A DNA stretch of 21,043 nucleotides. Source: a virus. The stretch spans positions 1-21,043 of IMG/VR virus record IMGVR_UViG_3300042914_003974; one strand, written 5' to 3'. A program made the position numbers and the translations under genes. Each line of letters begins with the position of its first letter. The stretch's first letter is position 1. Shown here piece by piece: positions 432 through 18,706 of this stretch. The notes below the pieces were generated by a model, which saw nothing but the letters and a program-made list of their open reading frames with translations, made no database searches and had not been told where the DNA came from.

Positions 432-614
432 ATGAACATGGAACAAAAAGCCCAAAGGTACAGTTACCTATTAGGGGAACACACTAAAATATCTAATCAG
501 ATTCAGTCAATTAAAGGTGAGAGTATTGATTTAAACGCATCTCAAGAACAAAGAATTTCAAGATTAAATAATCAGTTAATGATGATTATGAATGAAATTC
601 AAGGGATGATGTAA
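432..614 (+). CDS. Small coiled-coil-like hypothetical protein (60 aa)
   Basis: Starts MNMEQKAQRYSYLLGEHTKI; a second ATG at 438 is an equally possible start. The sequence is rich in Gln, Ile, Leu, Met and Ser, with no Pro or Cys, and has heptad-like spacing of hydrophobic residues across residues 13-58, so a short helical hairpin or coiled coil is likely. It ends with IQGMM. The last 29 bases overlap the 3' end of the convergent gene 586..1122. No family is recognised. Confidence 0.6.
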   Translation: MNMEQKAQRYSYLLGEHTKISNQIQSIKGESIDLNASQEQRISRLNNQLMMIMNEIQGMM

Positions 615-1122
615 ACCAATTAGGCACTTCTCGATTTTTCCAAACCGCAAAACCTGATTTTGCTTCACGGTAATAGTTTCGGTAAGATTCCACAACATCG
701 GATACTTTGTATTCATCAGGCATTGCTTTGGGTGGCTCAGTGAAACCTTTGTCACAAATGTTTACCTTATTTGTTACACACCACTCAATAACATCTTGGG
801 ATTTATGTCTTTTACCATATCGGTATGTGTATTCCTTACATAACTCAAGACCCAATTCACATAGGTAAAGATAATTACTTAAACTCTCACGAGTCCAAAT
901 AGCACAAGGATGATTTTTGTGTGATAACTTGTACGGTACTTGGTCGTTTACTTGGTCGTTTACTTGGTCGGTACTTGGTGGGTACTTGGTGGGTACTTGG
1001 TGGGTCATATGATGAGCACCACACAATAGTTGAGCCGTTTCCAATATCATTTTAACCACATGTTTATCACAGTGGTATTTTGCGCATTTTTCAGTATCCC
1101 AATCCAAAAAGAAAATATTCAT
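586..1122 (-). CDS. Conserved phage protein (MNIFFLDWD...DKHVVK) with low-complexity repeat insert
   Basis: The ATG at 1122..1120 gives MNIFFLDWDTEKCAKYHCDK. A TTG 15 bases upstream is in frame, but the ATG sits 4 bases after a TATATTTG box and is the better start. Conserved-looking blocks are the N-terminal YHCDKHVVKMILETAQLLCG, the central HKNHPCAIWTRESLSNYLYL, and the C-terminal PPKAMPDEYK and ESYRNYYR. I recall similar uncharacterised proteins in many phages but cannot assign a function. Between the first two blocks lies a segment rich in Val, Pro, Thr, Asp and Gln (about residues 40-61) that is encoded by an 11/12-bp tandem repeat and looks like an insertion. It lies downstream of the FKBP gene's terminator, so it is probably a separate transcript. 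Confidence 0.85.
   Translation of the reverse strand: MNIFFLDWDTEKCAKYHCDKHVVKMILETAQLLCGAHHMTHQVPTKYPPSTDQVNDQVNDQVPYKLSHKNHPCAIWTRESLSNYLYLCELGLELCKEYTYRYGKRHKSQDVIEWCVTNKVNICDKGFTEPPKAMPDEYKVSDVVESYRNYYREAKSGFAVWKNREVPNWFTSSLEFHS
937..1004. repeat. Tandem repeat, six 11/12-bp units inside a CDS
   Basis: On the plus strand the units are TACTTGGTCGTT twice (12 bp), TACTTGGTCGG once (11 bp) and TACTTGGTGGG three times (11 bp). They lie inside the minus-strand gene 586..1122. The 11-bp units are not a multiple of three, so gain or loss of one copy would shift the frame, whereas the 12-bp units would keep it. Confidence 0.95.
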
Positions 1123-1126
1123 ACTG

Positions 1127-1134
1127 CAAATATA
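1127..1134 (-). promoter_or_regulatory. TATATTTG -7 box directly after a terminator
   Basis: The minus strand reads TATATTTG, then CAGT, then the ATG at 1122, the same 4-base spacing as at 252..259. No TTTG is found 19-21 bases upstream because that region is the terminator hairpin. The T-tract of the hairpin (TTTTTTG) abuts the box. Confidence 0.5.
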
Positions 1135-1136
1135 CA

Positions 1137-1163
1137 AAAAACCCCTCCAAGTGAGGGGTTTTT
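1137..1163 (-). terminator. Intrinsic terminator of the FKBP gene
   Basis: The inverted repeat ACCCCTC (1141..1147) and GAGGGGT (1153..1159) with a 5-base loop is extended by A/T pairs. Read on the minus strand it ends in TTTTTTG. It begins 5 bases beyond the stop codon of the gene at 1168..1593. Confidence 0.85.
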
Positions 1164-2431: not shown

Positions 2432-3259
2432 TTAGAATGCTTCTACTTCTTCCATCATTAACTGATAAGCTCTTGCAAGTCTTGTCATTCCGATTCCACC
2501 ACCAAAACGGGGGAAGAAATCATGAGATAGGAATTCTTCTAATTCTTTCTCAACTCTTTCTTTACCGAATAGTTCAAATAGTTTTTCAGAATATTTTCCA
2601 TTTTCAATTGTGTAGAAATTATTTCTCATCTCTTCAACATTTGAACTTCTTTCCGCAGAACCAATTGTTTCTTGTCCGTAAAGAATTACATCGACCTTAT
2701 TGAATATCTTATTTTCACTCTCTTTCATATTCCAAAATGGGTTTGTTCTATATGGGAAATTTTGTAATGATACTACACTGCCTTTTTCTTTCCACATTCT
2801 TGTTTCGTGTTCATCCTCTAAAATTGAGACTCCTCCGTATTCTTCACAAACATCATCATAATTTACCTCAACAGGTTTGTCAAAACCTAAATAATCCAAA
2901 AGTTCTGATTCAAGTTTTAACATTTCTTTCATTCCACCTTTTGATTCAAATTCAAACATTGGGAAGATTAATTCGTGACGACCTGGTATTGGTGTTTTTT
3001 CTTGTCTATAAGATGTTGAAATACAATACACACCATTCCATTCAGGATTTTTAAGAAGTTCATATTCTAACCACATTTGACCTGTTTGTGGTAGTGGCCA
3101 AACTTCTCCTTGATAATTGAATGTTGTAATTGAGTGAGGATTCTCACATGCTGCCAAGATTGATAATCTTGATTGTGTTGGAACTTCTTTAAATCCTTTT
3201 TCTTGAAAGAATGTTCTCATTTTTTGAACTAACTCGTTGTAAGTTTCTGTGTTTTTCAT
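2432..3259 (-). CDS. Stand-alone class II aminoacyl-tRNA synthetase-like catalytic domain (Asx/Lys type)
   Basis: A 275-aa protein with the core of class IIb synthetases (AspRS/AsnRS/LysRS group) and no N-terminal OB-fold anticodon-binding domain. Motif 2 is visible as STSYRQEKTPIPGRHELIFP with FEFE following (about residues 81-105), including the ATP-binding Arg of the RxE motif (R85, E87). Motif 3 is GGGIGMTRLARA (about 253-264) with Arg at 260. WPLPQTGQMWLEYELL (about 53-68) resembles the aspartate/asparagine-site region with its TGQ signature. Proteins of this build include the archaeal asparagine synthetase derived from AspRS and EpmA-type tRNA-synthetase paralogues, so it may activate an amino acid such as aspartate without charging a tRNA. 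The exact substrate cannot be read by eye. Upstream are a terminator-like hairpin and a micro-ORF that may control it. Confidence 0.85.
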   Translation of the reverse strand: MKNTETYNELVQKMRTFFQEKGFKEVPTQSRLSILAACENPHSITTFNYQGEVWPLPQTGQMWLEYELLKNPEWNGVYCISTSYRQEKTPIPGRHELIFPMFEFESKGGMKEMLKLESELLDYLGFDKPVEVNYDDVCEEYGGVSILEDEHETRMWKEKGSVVSLQNFPYRTNPFWNMKESENKIFNKVDVILYGQETIGSAERSSNVEEMRNNFYTIENGKYSEKLFELFGKERVEKELEEFLSHDFFPRFGGGIGMTRLARAYQLMMEEVEAF

Positions 3260-3427: not shown

Positions 3428-5410
3428 ATGAAAAAATTACTTTCAGAAGTTAACAGATTTAAAAGTCTAATCGGAGTAAACCTAAATGAGGATGTTAAAG
3501 CTGCCGAGGACTATGAGTTTACAATATCAAGTATATTAAAAAACGACAAAGTTTATACAAAACAGATTGAAGTATTGTTGTATGATATACTTGATAAGGG
3601 TTATGAGTCCCCAATTAATTTTGATTTACTTGAGAGAGGTGTTCGTAATGTTTTAATGAAGAAAGGTGATAAGAAAAAAAATATCACAAAGTATTTGCAA
3701 AATGTGTTAAAGGTATTAAAAAAGAGAAATAAACAAGATTTTGATGATGGGGAACCTGAACCTGAAGAATTTACTTTTGAACCACAAGAGCCGTCAATGA
3801 TTAAGAAAAAAGTATATAATAAAGAATTATATTACTTACAAGTTGAGTTACTTAAAATGCAAGAATGGATAAAGAAAACAGGAAAAACTGTTATTATTGT
3901 CTTTGAGGGTAGGGACTCGGCAGGTAAAGGGTCAACAATTAAAAAATTCACAGAAAATTTAAATCCAAGATATTATAACATTATTGCGTTAGGAATTCCA
4001 ACACCTGATGAACGAAAAGCATGGTGGGATAGATACCGTAACCAAATTCAAAAAGGTATGATTAATTTCTTTGATAGAAGTTGGTATAACAGAGGACTTG
4101 TTGAACCTGTTATGGGGTATGGGTCACCTGAAGAATATGAGGACTTTATGAATAATGTTGAAGATTTTGAGAAGGACTTAGTAAAGGATGGGGATTATTT
4201 GTTTAAACTATGGTTCTCAATTGATAAGGAGACTCAGGCAAAGAGATTTCAAATGAGACAACAATCACCTGTCAAATATTGGAAATATTCACCTAATGAC
4301 GAGAAAATGCAAGATATGTGGGACAGGTTCTCAGAGTTCAAACAAAAATTATTTGATAAAACATCTACGGTTAATCACCCTTGGGTAATATTGGACGCAA
4401 ATGATAAAAGAGTATCAGGTCTAAATGCGATTAGATATGTGTTACAAAATATTCCGTATGAAGGTAAGAACAATGAAATATTAGATAAAGATTTTCCTGA
4501 GGCTATGACGGTATTAAAACCTGAGATTGGTGAGTCTAAAAACATAAATGAAACCGAAGGAGCTGACCCAAAAAATCCTGACTCACATCCTGATTTGGAT
4601 GATTTTGGTCCTGACAGTTGGTGGAAATTTGAGGATTGGAAAACATGGTTTAACGCAAGTGTTAAAAAATATGGGTGGGATAGGGCAAAACAAAACTTTG
4701 CAAGATTTTGGATGGCAGTTGAGGAAGGTACTGGAGTTGGAACCACAAATGATTTAGATGTTAATTGGTTAAAACAAAACGGTCTTTGGAATGAAAAAAC
4801 TGGTAAGGTTTATACAAGAGACGAAATGTCTACCCAACTATCAAAATCAGGTGATAAATCATATCCTCCATTTTCTAATAATGAATTAACTGTTTACAAA
4901 TTTTTAAGGGGTAATGGGTTTACCAAAATGGGGACAGCTGCGATTATGGGGAATATATTCCAAGAAACTTCATTTAATGGTGATACAATAACTAAAAAGG
5001 CGGTTAATGACAAAGGAGCTCCATCTTTTGGATTAATTCAATGGAGAGGGCAAAGGTTTTATCCTAATGTAAAAAATGATGTTAAATTTGTTAGTAATAA
5101 AACTCCAAATATTACTACTAATTGTAAGGATAAAGAAAACCCAAGTCGACTGAAACAATTAATGTGTCGTTATCCAAATTCATTTAACTCTATTAACACC
5201 CAACTTAATTTTCTGATGTCCGAATTATCAAAATATGAAACATTACTTGGAGAGTTGAAAAATAAAAAACTTAGTAAAGATGGTGACGGTTCAGTTTCAG
5301 GTGGAAAGGCGTTAGAAATAAATAAAAAATTTATAAGAGGTGAGGAAGGGAATAGATTTAAACATGCGCAATCTTATTTTAATAAAATTAAAAGTGAAAA
5401 GTATTTATAG
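3428..5410 (+). CDS. Tagged polyphosphate kinase 2 - phage tail-lysozyme fusion
   Basis: A 660-aa protein with four parts. (1) An N-terminal leader MKKLLSEVNRFKSLIGVNLN ending at E21, like that of the gene at 16913. (2) A Lys-rich helical region (30-120). (3) A PPK2 domain (about 125-345), which in known members moves phosphate from polyphosphate to nucleotides. It has Walker A GRDSAGKGST (161-170), Walker B FFDRSWYNR (214-222) and a lid with RQQSPVKYWKYSPND (277-291), so the catalytic set looks intact. (4) After an acidic linker (365-395), a Trp-rich segment (398-455) and a phage tail-lysozyme-like domain (about 485-655) with IMGNIFQETSFN (506-517, candidate catalytic Glu513) and SFGLIQWRGQR (533-543). 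That domain type cuts peptidoglycan during entry. Linker sites IGE369/S and INE375/T could be protease sites. The joining of a nucleotide kinase to an entry lysozyme is unusual. Confidence 0.93.
   Translation: MKKLLSEVNRFKSLIGVNLNEDVKAAEDYEFTISSILKNDKVYTKQIEVLLYDILDKGYESPINFDLLERGVRNVLMKKGDKKKNITKYLQNVLKVLKKRNKQDFDDGEPEPEEFTFEPQEPSMIKKKVYNKELYYLQVELLKMQEWIKKTGKTVIIVFEGRDSAGKGSTIKKFTENLNPRYYNIIALGIPTPDERKAWWDRYRNQIQKGMINFFDRSWYNRGLVEPVMGYGSPEEYEDFMNNVEDFEKDLVKDGDYLFKLWFSIDKETQAKRFQMRQQSPVKYWKYSPNDEKMQDMWDRFSEFKQKLFDKTSTVNHPWVILDANDKRVSGLNAIRYVLQNIPYEGKNNEILDKDFPEAMTVLKPEIGESKNINETEGADPKNPDSHPDLDDFGPDSWWKFEDWKTWFNASVKKYGWDRAKQNFARFWMAVEEGTGVGTTNDLDVNWLKQNGLWNEKTGKVYTRDEMSTQLSKSGDKSYPPFSNNELTVYKFLRGNGFTKMGTAAIMGNIFQETSFNGDTITKKAVNDKGAPSFGLIQWRGQRFYPNVKNDVKFVSNKTPNITTNCKDKENPSRLKQLMCRYPNSFNSINTQLNFLMSELSKYETLLGELKNKKLSKDGDGSVSGGKALEINKKFIRGEEGNRFKHAQSYFNKIKSEKYL
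5402..5409 (+). promoter_or_regulatory. Candidate phage promoter TATTTATA
   Basis: TATTTATA overlaps the last codons and stop of the preceding gene and is followed by GTAT and the ATG at 5414, the same 4-base spacing as at 3416. Confidence 0.55.
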
Positions 5411-5413
5411 TAT

Positions 5414-5740
5414 ATGAAAAAGAAGATTATCAATATAACTGAAAGTCAGTTGGAAAGAGTTGTTAAGAATTTAATGAATGAAAATGTTGCAAGATATGTA
5501 ATGTCTCCTGATGAATTTTTCAGAGAGAAAAATAAATCACAACAGTATCATTGTGCATTTGAGAACAAATGTTTTATAGTACATGATGGTAATCACCAAA
5601 TTGATGTTGATGATAAATTCATGGAAAAACACAAAATTCCAAATGGAATTGGTGGAACAATTTATCACGACGCTAAAAACATTTACTTCTGTCCTGATTT
5701 TGGTGACGACAGACCACAAAGAACTATTCAGATTTTTTAA
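5414..5740 (+). CDS. Tagged small hypothetical protein (108 aa)
   Basis: Begins MKKKIINITESQLERVVKNL, the clearest example of the ITESQL-type leader, with a hydrophobic-x-Glu site near MNE23/N. The mature part (about 24-108) is hydrophilic, with CAFENKCFIVHDG and IYFCPDFGDD; the three Cys and several His could bind a metal, but no motif is clear. It starts 4 bases after the stop of the PPK2-lysozyme gene and may share its transcript or use the TATTTATA box. Its 3' end overlaps the convergent gene 5737..6468 by 4 bases. No family is recognised. Confidence 0.8.
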   Translation: MKKKIINITESQLERVVKNLMNENVARYVMSPDEFFREKNKSQQYHCAFENKCFIVHDGNHQIDVDDKFMEKHKIPNGIGGTIYHDAKNIYFCPDFGDDRPQRTIQIF

Positions 5741-9660: not shown

Positions 9661-9690
9661 AAAAAAGGGGGGATTTAAATCCCCTTTTTT
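9661..9690. terminator. Bidirectional terminator
   Basis: AAAAAAGG, then GGGGATTTAAATCCCC, then TTTTTT, with A- and T-tracts on both sides. It lies between the convergent genes ending at 9653 and 9689. Confidence 0.9.
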
Positions 9691-10252
9691 ATTTATAAAG
9701 AACTAATACAGGGTCACTACCGTGAGGATTAAGTCCATCGCTAAAATGATATGTAATATCTAAGATTGAAACTGCGAAATATTTATATTCACGGTCTAAG
9801 ATGATTGCTCTGTGAGGAGGGGAGTTCATCCAACTTTTTACAATTGATTTAGTGATTTTATTATCCCAATCAGATTCGTTATTCCAGTTTGTTAAACACT
9901 CACTTTGAGCACACTCACCAACATAATATTTACCAGGTAAGAACTTTTCCATTCTTTGAGAATAACTCAATTCAACAAAGTCTTTAAAGTCCATACTTTC
10001 CTCATGCTCCAATTCTGATTCATAGTGGGACAAGTAAATTGCATGATACTTAGCCATTTCTTTCGCCTTTGGGCAAAATGACAATTGAGACAAACCATGT
10101 TTTGCTCTTTCAGAGTTTACTTCTTTTAAAACCAACTGCTCAATTTTAGTTGCCTCAACATAGGTAGTTTTAACTAAGGTTGGTTTTACATACTGAGAAA
10201 AAGATACTAAACTAATTAAAACAAAGGTGATTGTTAAGATTAAGTTTTTCAT
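9689..10252 (-). CDS. Secreted CAP (SCP/PR-1-like) domain protein
   Basis: A 187-aa protein starting MKNLILTITFVLISLVSFSQ, a typical flavobacterial signal peptide with cleavage near residue 20, so it should be exported to the periplasm or beyond. The CAP domain spans about 36-185: NSERAKHGLSQLSFCPKAKE (helix 1), a His-rich stretch with LEHEES (81-86), VGECAQ (the GEN-like motif, E113) and KSWMNSPPHRAIIL (139-152, with the W..SP.H signature). The four Cys may form disulfides. I chose the ATG at 10252 because it starts the signal peptide and follows a host-type promoter and a 5' leader. A secreted CAP protein in a phage is unusual; it could modify the envelope of the infected cell. Confidence 0.9.
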   Translation of the reverse strand: MKNLILTITFVLISLVSFSQYVKPTLVKTTYVEATKIEQLVLKEVNSERAKHGLSQLSFCPKAKEMAKYHAIYLSHYESELEHEESMDFKDFVELSYSQRMEKFLPGKYYVGECAQSECLTNWNNESDWDNKITKSIVKSWMNSPPHRAIILDREYKYFAVSILDITYHFSDGLNPHGSDPVLVLYK

Positions 10253-10263
10253 AGTGGTTGACT

Positions 10264-10309
10264 TTTTAATTATTTCTACAAATATATATAAAATATTCAT
10301 TCGCACAAA
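10264..10309 (-). promoter_or_regulatory. Bacteroidota promoter and 5' leader of the CAP gene
   Basis: On the minus strand TTTG (10309..10306), a 19-base spacer and TATATTTG (10286..10279) match the consensus exactly. The leader that follows is identical to that at 2206..2220, and the ATG comes 26 bases after the box. Confidence 0.75.
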
Positions 10310-10376
10310 ATATTTATGAAAAAGAATTTGATTTTTTTCAAATTCATAAACTTTAAACCCAAATAAATGGATAGTG

Positions 10377-10583
10377 ATGACTTGGAGACAAATATTCCGC
10401 AAAAACATAGCAACTTTCTGTCTAATGGCTGGAATGTTTTTCAACCCCTTAGGATTCGACATCATTTTCAAGATGATTTTAGATGCAACAAGTTCCTATT
10501 GGATTACCACAAGTATTTTCTATGGTATTGCACTATCATTCTTTGGATTGTATTTCTTATTTCGTGAAAAAAATGAAAATTGA
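10377..10583 (+). CDS. Small two-helix membrane protein (68 aa)
   Basis: The ATG at 10377 gives MTWRQIFRKNIATFCLMAGM; a GTG one codon earlier is possible. Two hydrophobic segments (about 10-35 and 45-62) are followed by a basic tail FREKNEN, a two-helix inner-membrane topology. The last 11 bases overlap the ATG of the DUF5872-like gene, suggesting coupling. A competing frame from 10367 encodes an implausible His/Trp-rich sequence. Function is unknown; it resembles the small membrane protein at 2233 in layout only. Confidence 0.6.
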   Translation: MTWRQIFRKNIATFCLMAGMFFNPLGFDIIFKMILDATSSYWITTSIFYGIALSFFGLYFLFREKNEN

Positions 10584-16912: not shown

Positions 16913-18706
16913 ATGAAAATCACATTAAAAGAAGAACTGAATAGAATAAAAAAAATAATGGGGGTTAAAATACTTTCCGAACAAGATTTACCAAGAGCGG
17001 TTACATCATTTAGTGACGATGCGATAATTAATGCAATTAAAGAATATATACCAAAAATCGCGTCACTTGCGGGAGGGACTTCTCAGGGTTCTTATAATAA
17101 GAATTTGGCTTTAAATCTTCTTAGAGATATTTCAGCGTCATCTGGTAAAAATATAAATAGTTTTGGAAAACCAAATGTTAATTTTTCAAAATATTCTACC
17201 GATAAATTTGGCAATAAAAAAATACAATCGGACACTGCGTTTAACCCTAAAGCTATTGACACAGGTAAATTACTTTCAGGGTTTGAAAATCTAAACGCGG
17301 TACAAAAGGCTGACATTGTAAAAAAATACACAACAGAAATGATTCAACTTGGAATTATTTCTCCAGAAATTGCGGTAGACGCGATGATTGCTCATAATGA
17401 TACCGACTATAAGTGGGTTCGTTGGTGGATGTCTGATGGACAATATCAAGTAATGATAAAAGGTGATGTGGCTAAGGTGGACAACGCTTATTTAGATATG
17501 TCAATTAATGAATTTATGGCGGCTTTAAAGATTCCTCAGTCAATGAGATACACTATGGCGGAAAGAGTCAAATCGTATTTAATGAGAGATGGTATTCAAA
17601 TTAATCCTAAATACACTGCAAAAGAAAAAACTTCGTTACTGGGTAAAGAGACTCAAATAAATAACATGGTTCCTGGAGGATATACGGAGGAGCAAGTTGC
17701 GGAAGCGATTTCTCAACAAGTTATGGATAATTTTGTTACCCGTAATAACAACCCAACAACACTATACAATTATTTTGTAACATCTAACGACCTAAGATTT
17801 ACTGAATTAAAAAAATGGTTAGTTATCCCCAAAAACAAAGAATTATTTATTAAAGCCATGTCACAAAATCCTACTGAAAAACAATGGGATGAGGCGTTTA
17901 ATACTTTAAAACGAGAAGGGTTATTATCTCAAGAACAAATGACTTGGGTTGAAAGGCATCGTAAATTTTGTTACAAAACAGTTAAAGGGTTTAAAGGTGA
18001 TAAAGACTTTATTATTGGTAGTGAAGTTGGAAAGGGTGATGAGTATACCTTAGAAAAAATGACAAGGTTATGTAGAGTATTTCAAACATATATTTTCACA
18101 AAAATATTTGTTGGAGTTATTGGATTAGTGGGTTCGGTAGGACTAGGTTGGATTTTTAGAAATTTCTTTTTTGGTAATGAGGCCATTTCTTTGTATGGGT
18201 GGTTTACAGGATGTGTTAGTAAAGAAGATAGTGATAAATTTTTAAATGGGGATGATGAAATATTTAACGAGGTAAACTGGACAAAAATAGGGATAAGTAG
18301 AGAGGATTTCAAAAATGAATATTTACCAATGATAAAAGCACAGTCTTTATATAACTTTAAAAAATTTAAAGCGTGTGATGAAGATATGTTATACATGTTA
18401 ATACCTCAAAAAACTGCTGATGGTTCATTAGACTTAAATTTGAGTAAACGAGTTTTTTTAACAACTGATTTATCTTCTAATTTTGTATTAAAGAATGTTG
18501 ACAGTGAACAAGGATTGATGGATAACTTAAAAGGTGACTATGATACTTTTATTAATAGAGCTAAAGGTGCAATTGAAGATGCTAAGAAACAGGTCCAAAA
18601 TTTGGGAGGAAATTCAAATGATGCAACAGGACCCATCAAAGACACGACAAACTCATTATCCCCCATCGTCAGCGCAACAGACTCAACAAATATTGTTGAC
18701 AATTGA
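16913..18706 (+). CDS. Large tagged hypothetical protein with membrane segment (597 aa)
   Basis: Starts MKITLKEELNRIKKIMGVKI and continues LSE23/Q. The leader aligns with that of the PPK2-lysozyme protein (E..NR(F/I)K..(I/M)GV...L.E). Residues 24-390 are soluble, with a Met-rich stretch ITEMIQLG and WVRWWMSDGQYQVMIKGD. A hydrophobic segment at about 393-419 (IFTKIFVGVIGLVGSVGLGW) could be one or two membrane helices. The C-terminus is acidic and Ser/Thr/Asn-rich. No named domain is recognised. It stands between two other large genes with small gaps, probably one operon. Confidence 0.75.
   Translation: MKITLKEELNRIKKIMGVKILSEQDLPRAVTSFSDDAIINAIKEYIPKIASLAGGTSQGSYNKNLALNLLRDISASSGKNINSFGKPNVNFSKYSTDKFGNKKIQSDTAFNPKAIDTGKLLSGFENLNAVQKADIVKKYTTEMIQLGIISPEIAVDAMIAHNDTDYKWVRWWMSDGQYQVMIKGDVAKVDNAYLDMSINEFMAALKIPQSMRYTMAERVKSYLMRDGIQINPKYTAKEKTSLLGKETQINNMVPGGYTEEQVAEAISQQVMDNFVTRNNNPTTLYNYFVTSNDLRFTELKKWLVIPKNKELFIKAMSQNPTEKQWDEAFNTLKREGLLSQEQMTWVERHRKFCYKTVKGFKGDKDFIIGSEVGKGDEYTLEKMTRLCRVFQTYIFTKIFVGVIGLVGSVGLGWIFRNFFFGNEAISLYGWFTGCVSKEDSDKFLNGDDEIFNEVNWTKIGISREDFKNEYLPMIKAQSLYNFKKFKACDEDMLYMLIPQKTADGSLDLNLSKRVFLTTDLSSNFVLKNVDSEQGLMDNLKGDYDTFINRAKGAIEDAKKQVQNLGGNSNDATGPIKDTTNSLSPIVSATDSTNIVDN

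Follow-up and report, generated by a model that had tools for sequence, protein, structure and literature searches.

A single uninterrupted open reading frame, spanning exactly 3428-5410 on the plus strand of the window (the whole 21,043-nucleotide stretch analysed here), encodes a protein composed, in this order, of a leader, a helical domain, a class I polyphosphate kinase 2 (PPK2) and a Phage_lysozyme2 muramidase. The PPK2-muramidase fusion is real. A preliminary description had proposed one protein joining PPK2 with a lysozyme domain, and the open reading frame analysis, Pfam matches above cut-off for both domains and the presence of the same fusion at 97% identity in an independent second contig (L002) bear this out. 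A frameshift or assembly error joining two genes, which that description had named as a possible refutation, is rejected because L002 carries the fusion and the codon changes between the two copies are mostly synonymous (16 synonymous against 5 non-synonymous in the lysozyme part, dN/dS about 0.07-0.1). The product of the gene is, in our view, probably a polyprotein packaged by a large T4-like phage: head cargo imported by its leader, cut into PPK2 and muramidase, and delivered in both parts at infection. What the sequences themselves show are the domains, the intact PPK2 residues, the leader module, the [IL]NE motifs, the protease encoded by related contigs and the way in which the fusion arose. 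The features concerned are as follows.

3428..5410, + strand: PPK2-muramidase fusion gene, 660 aa; identical fusion layout in L002
3428..3490, + strand: leader MKKLLSEVNRFKSLIGVNLNE, residues 1-21, helical, ending in LNE, a putative prohead-protease site (leader profile, model helix 2-15, motif count)
3491..3793, + strand: helical N-terminal domain, residues 22-122, kept in the phage family
3800..4471, + strand: PPK2 domain, class I, residues 125-348 (Pfam, residue comparison, Foldseek)
3908..3937, + strand: Walker A GRDSAGKGST, residues 161-170
4067..4093, + strand: Walker B with class signature FFDRSWYNR, residues 214-222, including N221
4544..4552, + strand: junction motif INE, residues 373-375, a putative second cleavage site, which lines up with the point where the second leader of unfused relatives ends
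4553..4867, + strand: linker domain, residues 376-480; N-terminal part of a separate gene in L016, L321, L323 and L245
4830..5384, + strand: exchanged segment; the flanking DNA aligns with L003, the segment does not, and L003 has a PF00959 lysozyme there
4880..5266, + strand: Phage_lysozyme2 domain, residues 485-613 (Pfam)
4964-4966, + strand: putative catalytic Glu513, aligned with the Glu of the phi29 gp13 GNxxxE motif (weak match)
5414..5740, + strand: next gene, 108 aa, with its own leader MKKKIINITESQLERVVKNLMNE, kept behind the PPK2 unit in relatives
16913..18706, + strand: unrelated 597-aa protein with a leader of the same class, MKITLKEELNRIKKIMGVKILSE (leader profile, 15.9 bits)

The Pfam PPK2 model matches with 239 bits against a cut-off of 22.3 (E 5.3e-71), and the domain is 45% identical to the PPK2 of Francisella tularensis (FtPPK2). 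The preliminary description held the Walker A, Walker B and lid elements to be intact; the catalytic residues aligned with FtPPK2 are indeed kept. Among the residues with proposed functions in that enzyme (PMC4748334), D163, K167, D216, R217, R273, R277, K283 and K327 are conserved in the window, and N177, G331 and R328 stand in place of H76, R232 and K229. GRD and AGKG of Walker A and DRSWYNR of Walker B are invariant in 33 relatives. The class I signature, an Asn after Walker B (PMC8776046), is present as N221. On these residues the domain is filed as a class I PPK2 with predicted NDP-phosphorylating activity, and synthesis of NTPs from host polyphosphate would be expected because of this class membership. 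An AlphaFold model contains the leader helix (2-15), the helical domain (26-105), the PPK2 fold, a disordered junction (366-393) and a helical linker. Structure prediction, proposed earlier as a check, succeeded for the PPK2 part, which Foldseek matches to the F. tularensis structures 4yeg and 5llf (E about 4e-21; 4yeg 3.7e-21); the lysozyme part is not resolved in the model because the alignment is too shallow there. The helical N-terminal domain is not in the cellular PPK2s found. A quick tree sets the phage PPK2s, except for the long-branched L205, apart from those of cells (99 SH-aLRT). This sequence, from a 44-kb contig of a Verrucomicrobia MAG, lies among mahaphage sequences and may belong to a phage contig binned with the bacterium.

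Scans of viral contigs (viral_contigs) returned 162 relative loci, among which some contigs are represented twice, with 75 distinct C-termini. In 71 of the 75 the protein ends shortly after PPK2; the other 4 carry an extension, and the window adds a fifth fused form. At least 71 distinct unfused relatives consist of leader and PPK2, ending near 366 aa, on contigs of up to 321 kb. Muramidase coupling is therefore not essential to the PPK2. The fusion is a minor, derived form of a larger, mostly unfused family. A search for the same architecture, also proposed earlier, thus found it recurring in L002, but as a minority form, most relatives having leader and PPK2 alone. Two other fused architectures exist, each on more than one contig: PPK2, linker and a PF00959 lysozyme in L003 (L136 is a fragment holding linker and lysozyme), and, in L005 and L006, PPK2 with a different PF00959 lysozyme. 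PPK2 is also encoded by huge phages (634-735 kb), with a differing N-terminus; polyphosphate is absent from the main text of a paper covering phages of such sizes (PMC7162821).

The fused forms fall in one subclade of the tree, beside L004 and then L016. The two changes of state that the tree program counts for the fusion are no evidence for two origins, because L058, scored as unfused, is the same contig as L005. Inheritance of the fusion from a bacterial gene was rejected: close phage relatives carry both genes side by side. None of the cellular PPK2 loci kept (n=80) has a C-terminal extension of more than 83 aa where measured.

In the close unfused relatives the gene directly after PPK2, abutting it or overlapping it by a few bases, encodes a leader, the linker and a muramidase. 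The PPK2 stop and the second start have one base in common in G006 (L016), where the second gene consists of the leader MNLVKILRNIILEQ, a linker 33% identical to that of the window (E 2e-11) and a PF00959 lysozyme. This arrangement recurs in L321/L322, L245/L246 and L323, where the second gene overlaps the PPK2 gene and its start lies 14 bases within it; the second gene of L324 joins leader and hydrolase without the linker. The catalytic domain varies, being PF00959 in L016, L321 and L245, and resembling PHROG 'tail injection transglycosylase' and 'head and packaging' proteins in L323 and L324. The junctions INE|TEGADPKNP of the window and LNE|TEGADPKNP of L003 align, by eye around a gap, with ILKE|QEGSDPKN, LNE|QNRDPKN and ILE|QKSDPKN of the separate genes. 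By this alignment, the fusion arose from adjacent leader-bearing genes, with loss of the helix of the second leader and persistence of [IL]NE where the two parts meet. In the window, L002 and L003 the strict [IL]NE at this place probably goes back to one evolutionary event. VNE in L005 and L006 was considered as a retained leader end and dropped, because unfused PPK2 tails also end in xNE; it may stem from the PPK2 tail.

The muramidase matches Phage_lysozyme2 with 49.5 bits against a cut-off of 28.2 (E 6.6e-13), and the alignment of Glu513 with phi29 gp13 is a weak match (E 0.014). Because the DNA of L003 aligns on both flanks of 4830-5384 and not inside, this segment is, by the alignment, the site at which the muramidase was exchanged. 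The muramidases of the slot behind PPK2 resemble virion-entry families in PHROG (tail injection transglycosylase, tape measure and head proteins), the best match of the window lysozyme being a tape measure protein.

A leader profile built from PPK2 leaders only was run on the window and three large relatives. It finds ten unrelated proteins in them, with matches at or within ten residues of the N-terminus and scores of 9.6-21.3 bits; the best decoys score 4.4 bits (internal) and 6.5 bits (reversed). These scores mark the leader as a true N-terminal module common to unrelated proteins, and no chance resemblance. It is kept in nearly the whole PPK2 family and ends in [ILVM]xE in 28 of 39 relatives by strict pattern and in several more by eye. 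The [ILV]xE motif is short and chance occurrences are expected; [ILV][NSTKQ]E at residues 5-14 is found 41, 54 and 66 times in G001, G006 and G009, against 14.3, 17.6 and 13.5 expected. Within the fusion protein, [ILVM]NE occurs only at residues 19-21 and 373-375. The PPK2s of the 634-735 kb phages (mahaphages) have an unlike type of leader, likewise ending in INE or MNE, whose pattern is enriched at the N-termini of a 642 kb genome (27 versus 7.5 expected), and L059 and L061 have a third type (MSYLKQIIKKELISE). In our view, the best reason to think that the leader has a role for PPK2 is that one PPK2 cargo stands behind three unlike leaders with one type of ending.

These observations bear on the view that the gene is an ordinary auxiliary metabolic gene, its PPK2 made in the infected cell for NTP and polyphosphate pools and its muramidase a lysis enzyme joined by accident. 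Most relatives do have PPK2 without a muramidase, and two papers report ppk2 on viral contigs as an auxiliary metabolic gene and treat it as intracellular (PMC9636769, PMC13188868). This view is made unlikely by the persistence of the leader in nearly the whole family and its occurrence on unrelated N-termini, including one M23 peptidase protein, and by the slot muramidases, which bear leaders of their own and match virion-entry families, whereas the PG-binding, endolysin-like genes that lie close to PPK2 in other relatives begin, as read by eye, without a leader.

Several other leader-bearing proteins were observed. A Class A leader precedes an M23 peptidase-domain protein, another wall hydrolase, at G006:48148-49728 (L082:8148-9725; E 2.5e-9). 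Two leader proteins of G009 have weak matches below cut-off, to a dual-specificity phosphatase and a PG-binding domain (L106:3773-5107) and to a chloramphenicol phosphotransferase-like kinase (L105:9577-10470). Flavobacterium phage immuto (NC_055915.1; L112-L115) has similar leaders, for example MKKQILSEQFKRMQFLAGIITESE and MKKSQLREIIRKE, many of them in the stretch before the terminase gene and one on a predicted deoxyribonucleotidase (109856); its genome yielded no PPK2, and no proteomics of this phage was found in the literature searched. G001 encodes a multi-copy small protein with the motif '(V/I)FxYLDxQDF' (for example at 102034-102696, 154889-155951 and 158716-159685), some copies of which have a leader-like start. 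Elsewhere in the window, a class II tRNA-synthetase-like protein (2432-3259, minus strand; PF00152, E 5.6e-14) is encoded divergently from the PPK2 gene, which it adjoins also in L002, L003, L004, L006 and L016. A match to pyrimidine dimer DNA glycosylase (586-1137, minus strand; PF03013) lies just under the cut-off, and a CAP-domain protein (9689-10471, minus strand; PF00188, E 1.3e-9) has a signal-like N-terminus from an internal Met.

Six related contigs encode a gp21-type prohead protease that scores above the Pfam cut-off, at 90.6 bits in G001 and at 77-88 bits in G006-G009 and G013. No head genes lie in the 21 kb fragment that makes up the window, and its protease is therefore extrapolated from these relatives. 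In G001, G006 and G009 the gp23-type capsid protein retains the sequence ENQASHLINE, followed by S or A. In T4, gp23 loses a 65-residue propeptide (PMC9958956), the leaders are capsid-targeting propeptides removed by gp21 (PMC5694885, PMC9958956), and Alt is cut at both ends, at ITE-6 and LTE-619 (PMC5694885). The gp21-type motif in the fusion protein favours the head over the tail, and the protein may work like T4 head cargo, an analogy that does not claim it to be such cargo. The packaging leader proposed in the preliminary description has thereby gained comparative support from its occurrence on unrelated proteins, the capsid-propeptide motif and the protease of the large relatives, packaging itself being deduced from these; its term 'tail-lysozyme' is only the name of a Pfam family, and the motif favours the head.

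Placement at the tail tip or baseplate, where the muramidase would drill the wall and PPK2 would be a structural passenger or active during entry, would suit a lysozyme family found in tail proteins, phi29 gp13 (a weak match) among them, and the tape measure protein as best PHROG match. It appears very improbable, given a leader and [IL]NE ending that resemble head cargo and a capsid propeptide, and an intact PPK2 active site, unlike that of a structural passenger. Hardly more probable is sorting by the leader to a place other than the head, such as a membrane or an infection compartment. The leaders are charged helices, lack a hydrophobic core and have an ending that agrees with the capsid propeptide and with the gp21 rule. 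Some leaders may nevertheless serve another purpose, because they are numerous, of several classes, and exceed the few internal proteins of T4.

In the packaged polyprotein that we favour, residues 1-21 would act like a T4 capsid-targeting sequence and draw the fusion protein into the prohead. A gp21-type protease would cut after LNE-21 and probably also after INE-375, and as a result of these cuts the mature head would hold free class I PPK2 and free linker-muramidase; the two may well be cut apart after packaging. Both would exit the head together with the DNA at infection, the muramidase opening the peptidoglycan and the PPK2 converting host polyphosphate and NDPs (ADP, GDP) into NTPs ahead of phage gene expression. 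Alternatively, the PPK2 might remove polyphosphate as a host stress signal. We infer from the likenesses described above that the protein is packaged, cleaved, ejected and active, and likewise what its PPK2 is for. To a wider proposal we give slightly less than an even chance: that PPK2 is injected by large T4-like phages along with the DNA, letting host polyphosphate fuel or protect the supply of NTPs as soon as infection begins, and that in the lineage of the window the imported protein is a single polyprotein of the kinase and an exchangeable muramidase, which the prohead protease then splits. No Ppx-GppA polyphosphatase partner was found in six genomes, and no proteomics of virions of such phages in the literature searched.

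Packaged and injected phage enzymes are known, for example T4 Alt, and we know of no injected phage enzyme that uses the host polyphosphate store. The preliminary description knew of no example of the fusion, and the papers searched, few of them subscription papers, likewise yielded no leader-tagged or virion-borne PPK2 and no PPK2-muramidase fusion. If the proposal is true, a widespread group of large phages injects a core metabolic enzyme as a take-over factor. The leader offers a sequence handle by which many further injected proteins of uncultured phages could be predicted, and in the slot behind PPK2 wall-cutting domains are seen to be swapped within one unit.

The viral ppk2 genes described as auxiliary metabolic genes resemble this one as PPK2 on viral contigs; no leader, packaging or muramidase fusion is reported in the accessible parts of those papers (PMC9636769, PMC13188868). 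With the class I PPK2s of F. tularensis (4YEG/5LL0) and S. meliloti (3CZQ) the phage protein has the fold, the catalytic residues and the class I Asn in common; it differs by its helical N-terminal domain and leader, in a few phage members by the C-terminal muramidase, and from cellular class I PPK2s in general by the separate branch of the phage proteins in the quick tree. With T4 Alt and the internal proteins IPI-III it has in common a short N-terminal leader ending in [IL]xE, a gp21-type protease (here in related contigs) and enzymatic cargo, and with Alt also possible cuts at two places in one protein, putative in the phage fusion. Here, however, the cargo would be PPK2 and muramidase, and homology to T4 leader sequences is not claimed. 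The ejected or virion-entry muramidases, such as phi29 gp13 and the PHROG tail injection transglycosylase, likewise have a wall-cutting domain of a virion-entry family, which here is an exchangeable domain behind a leader and linker, adjoining PPK2 or fused to it.
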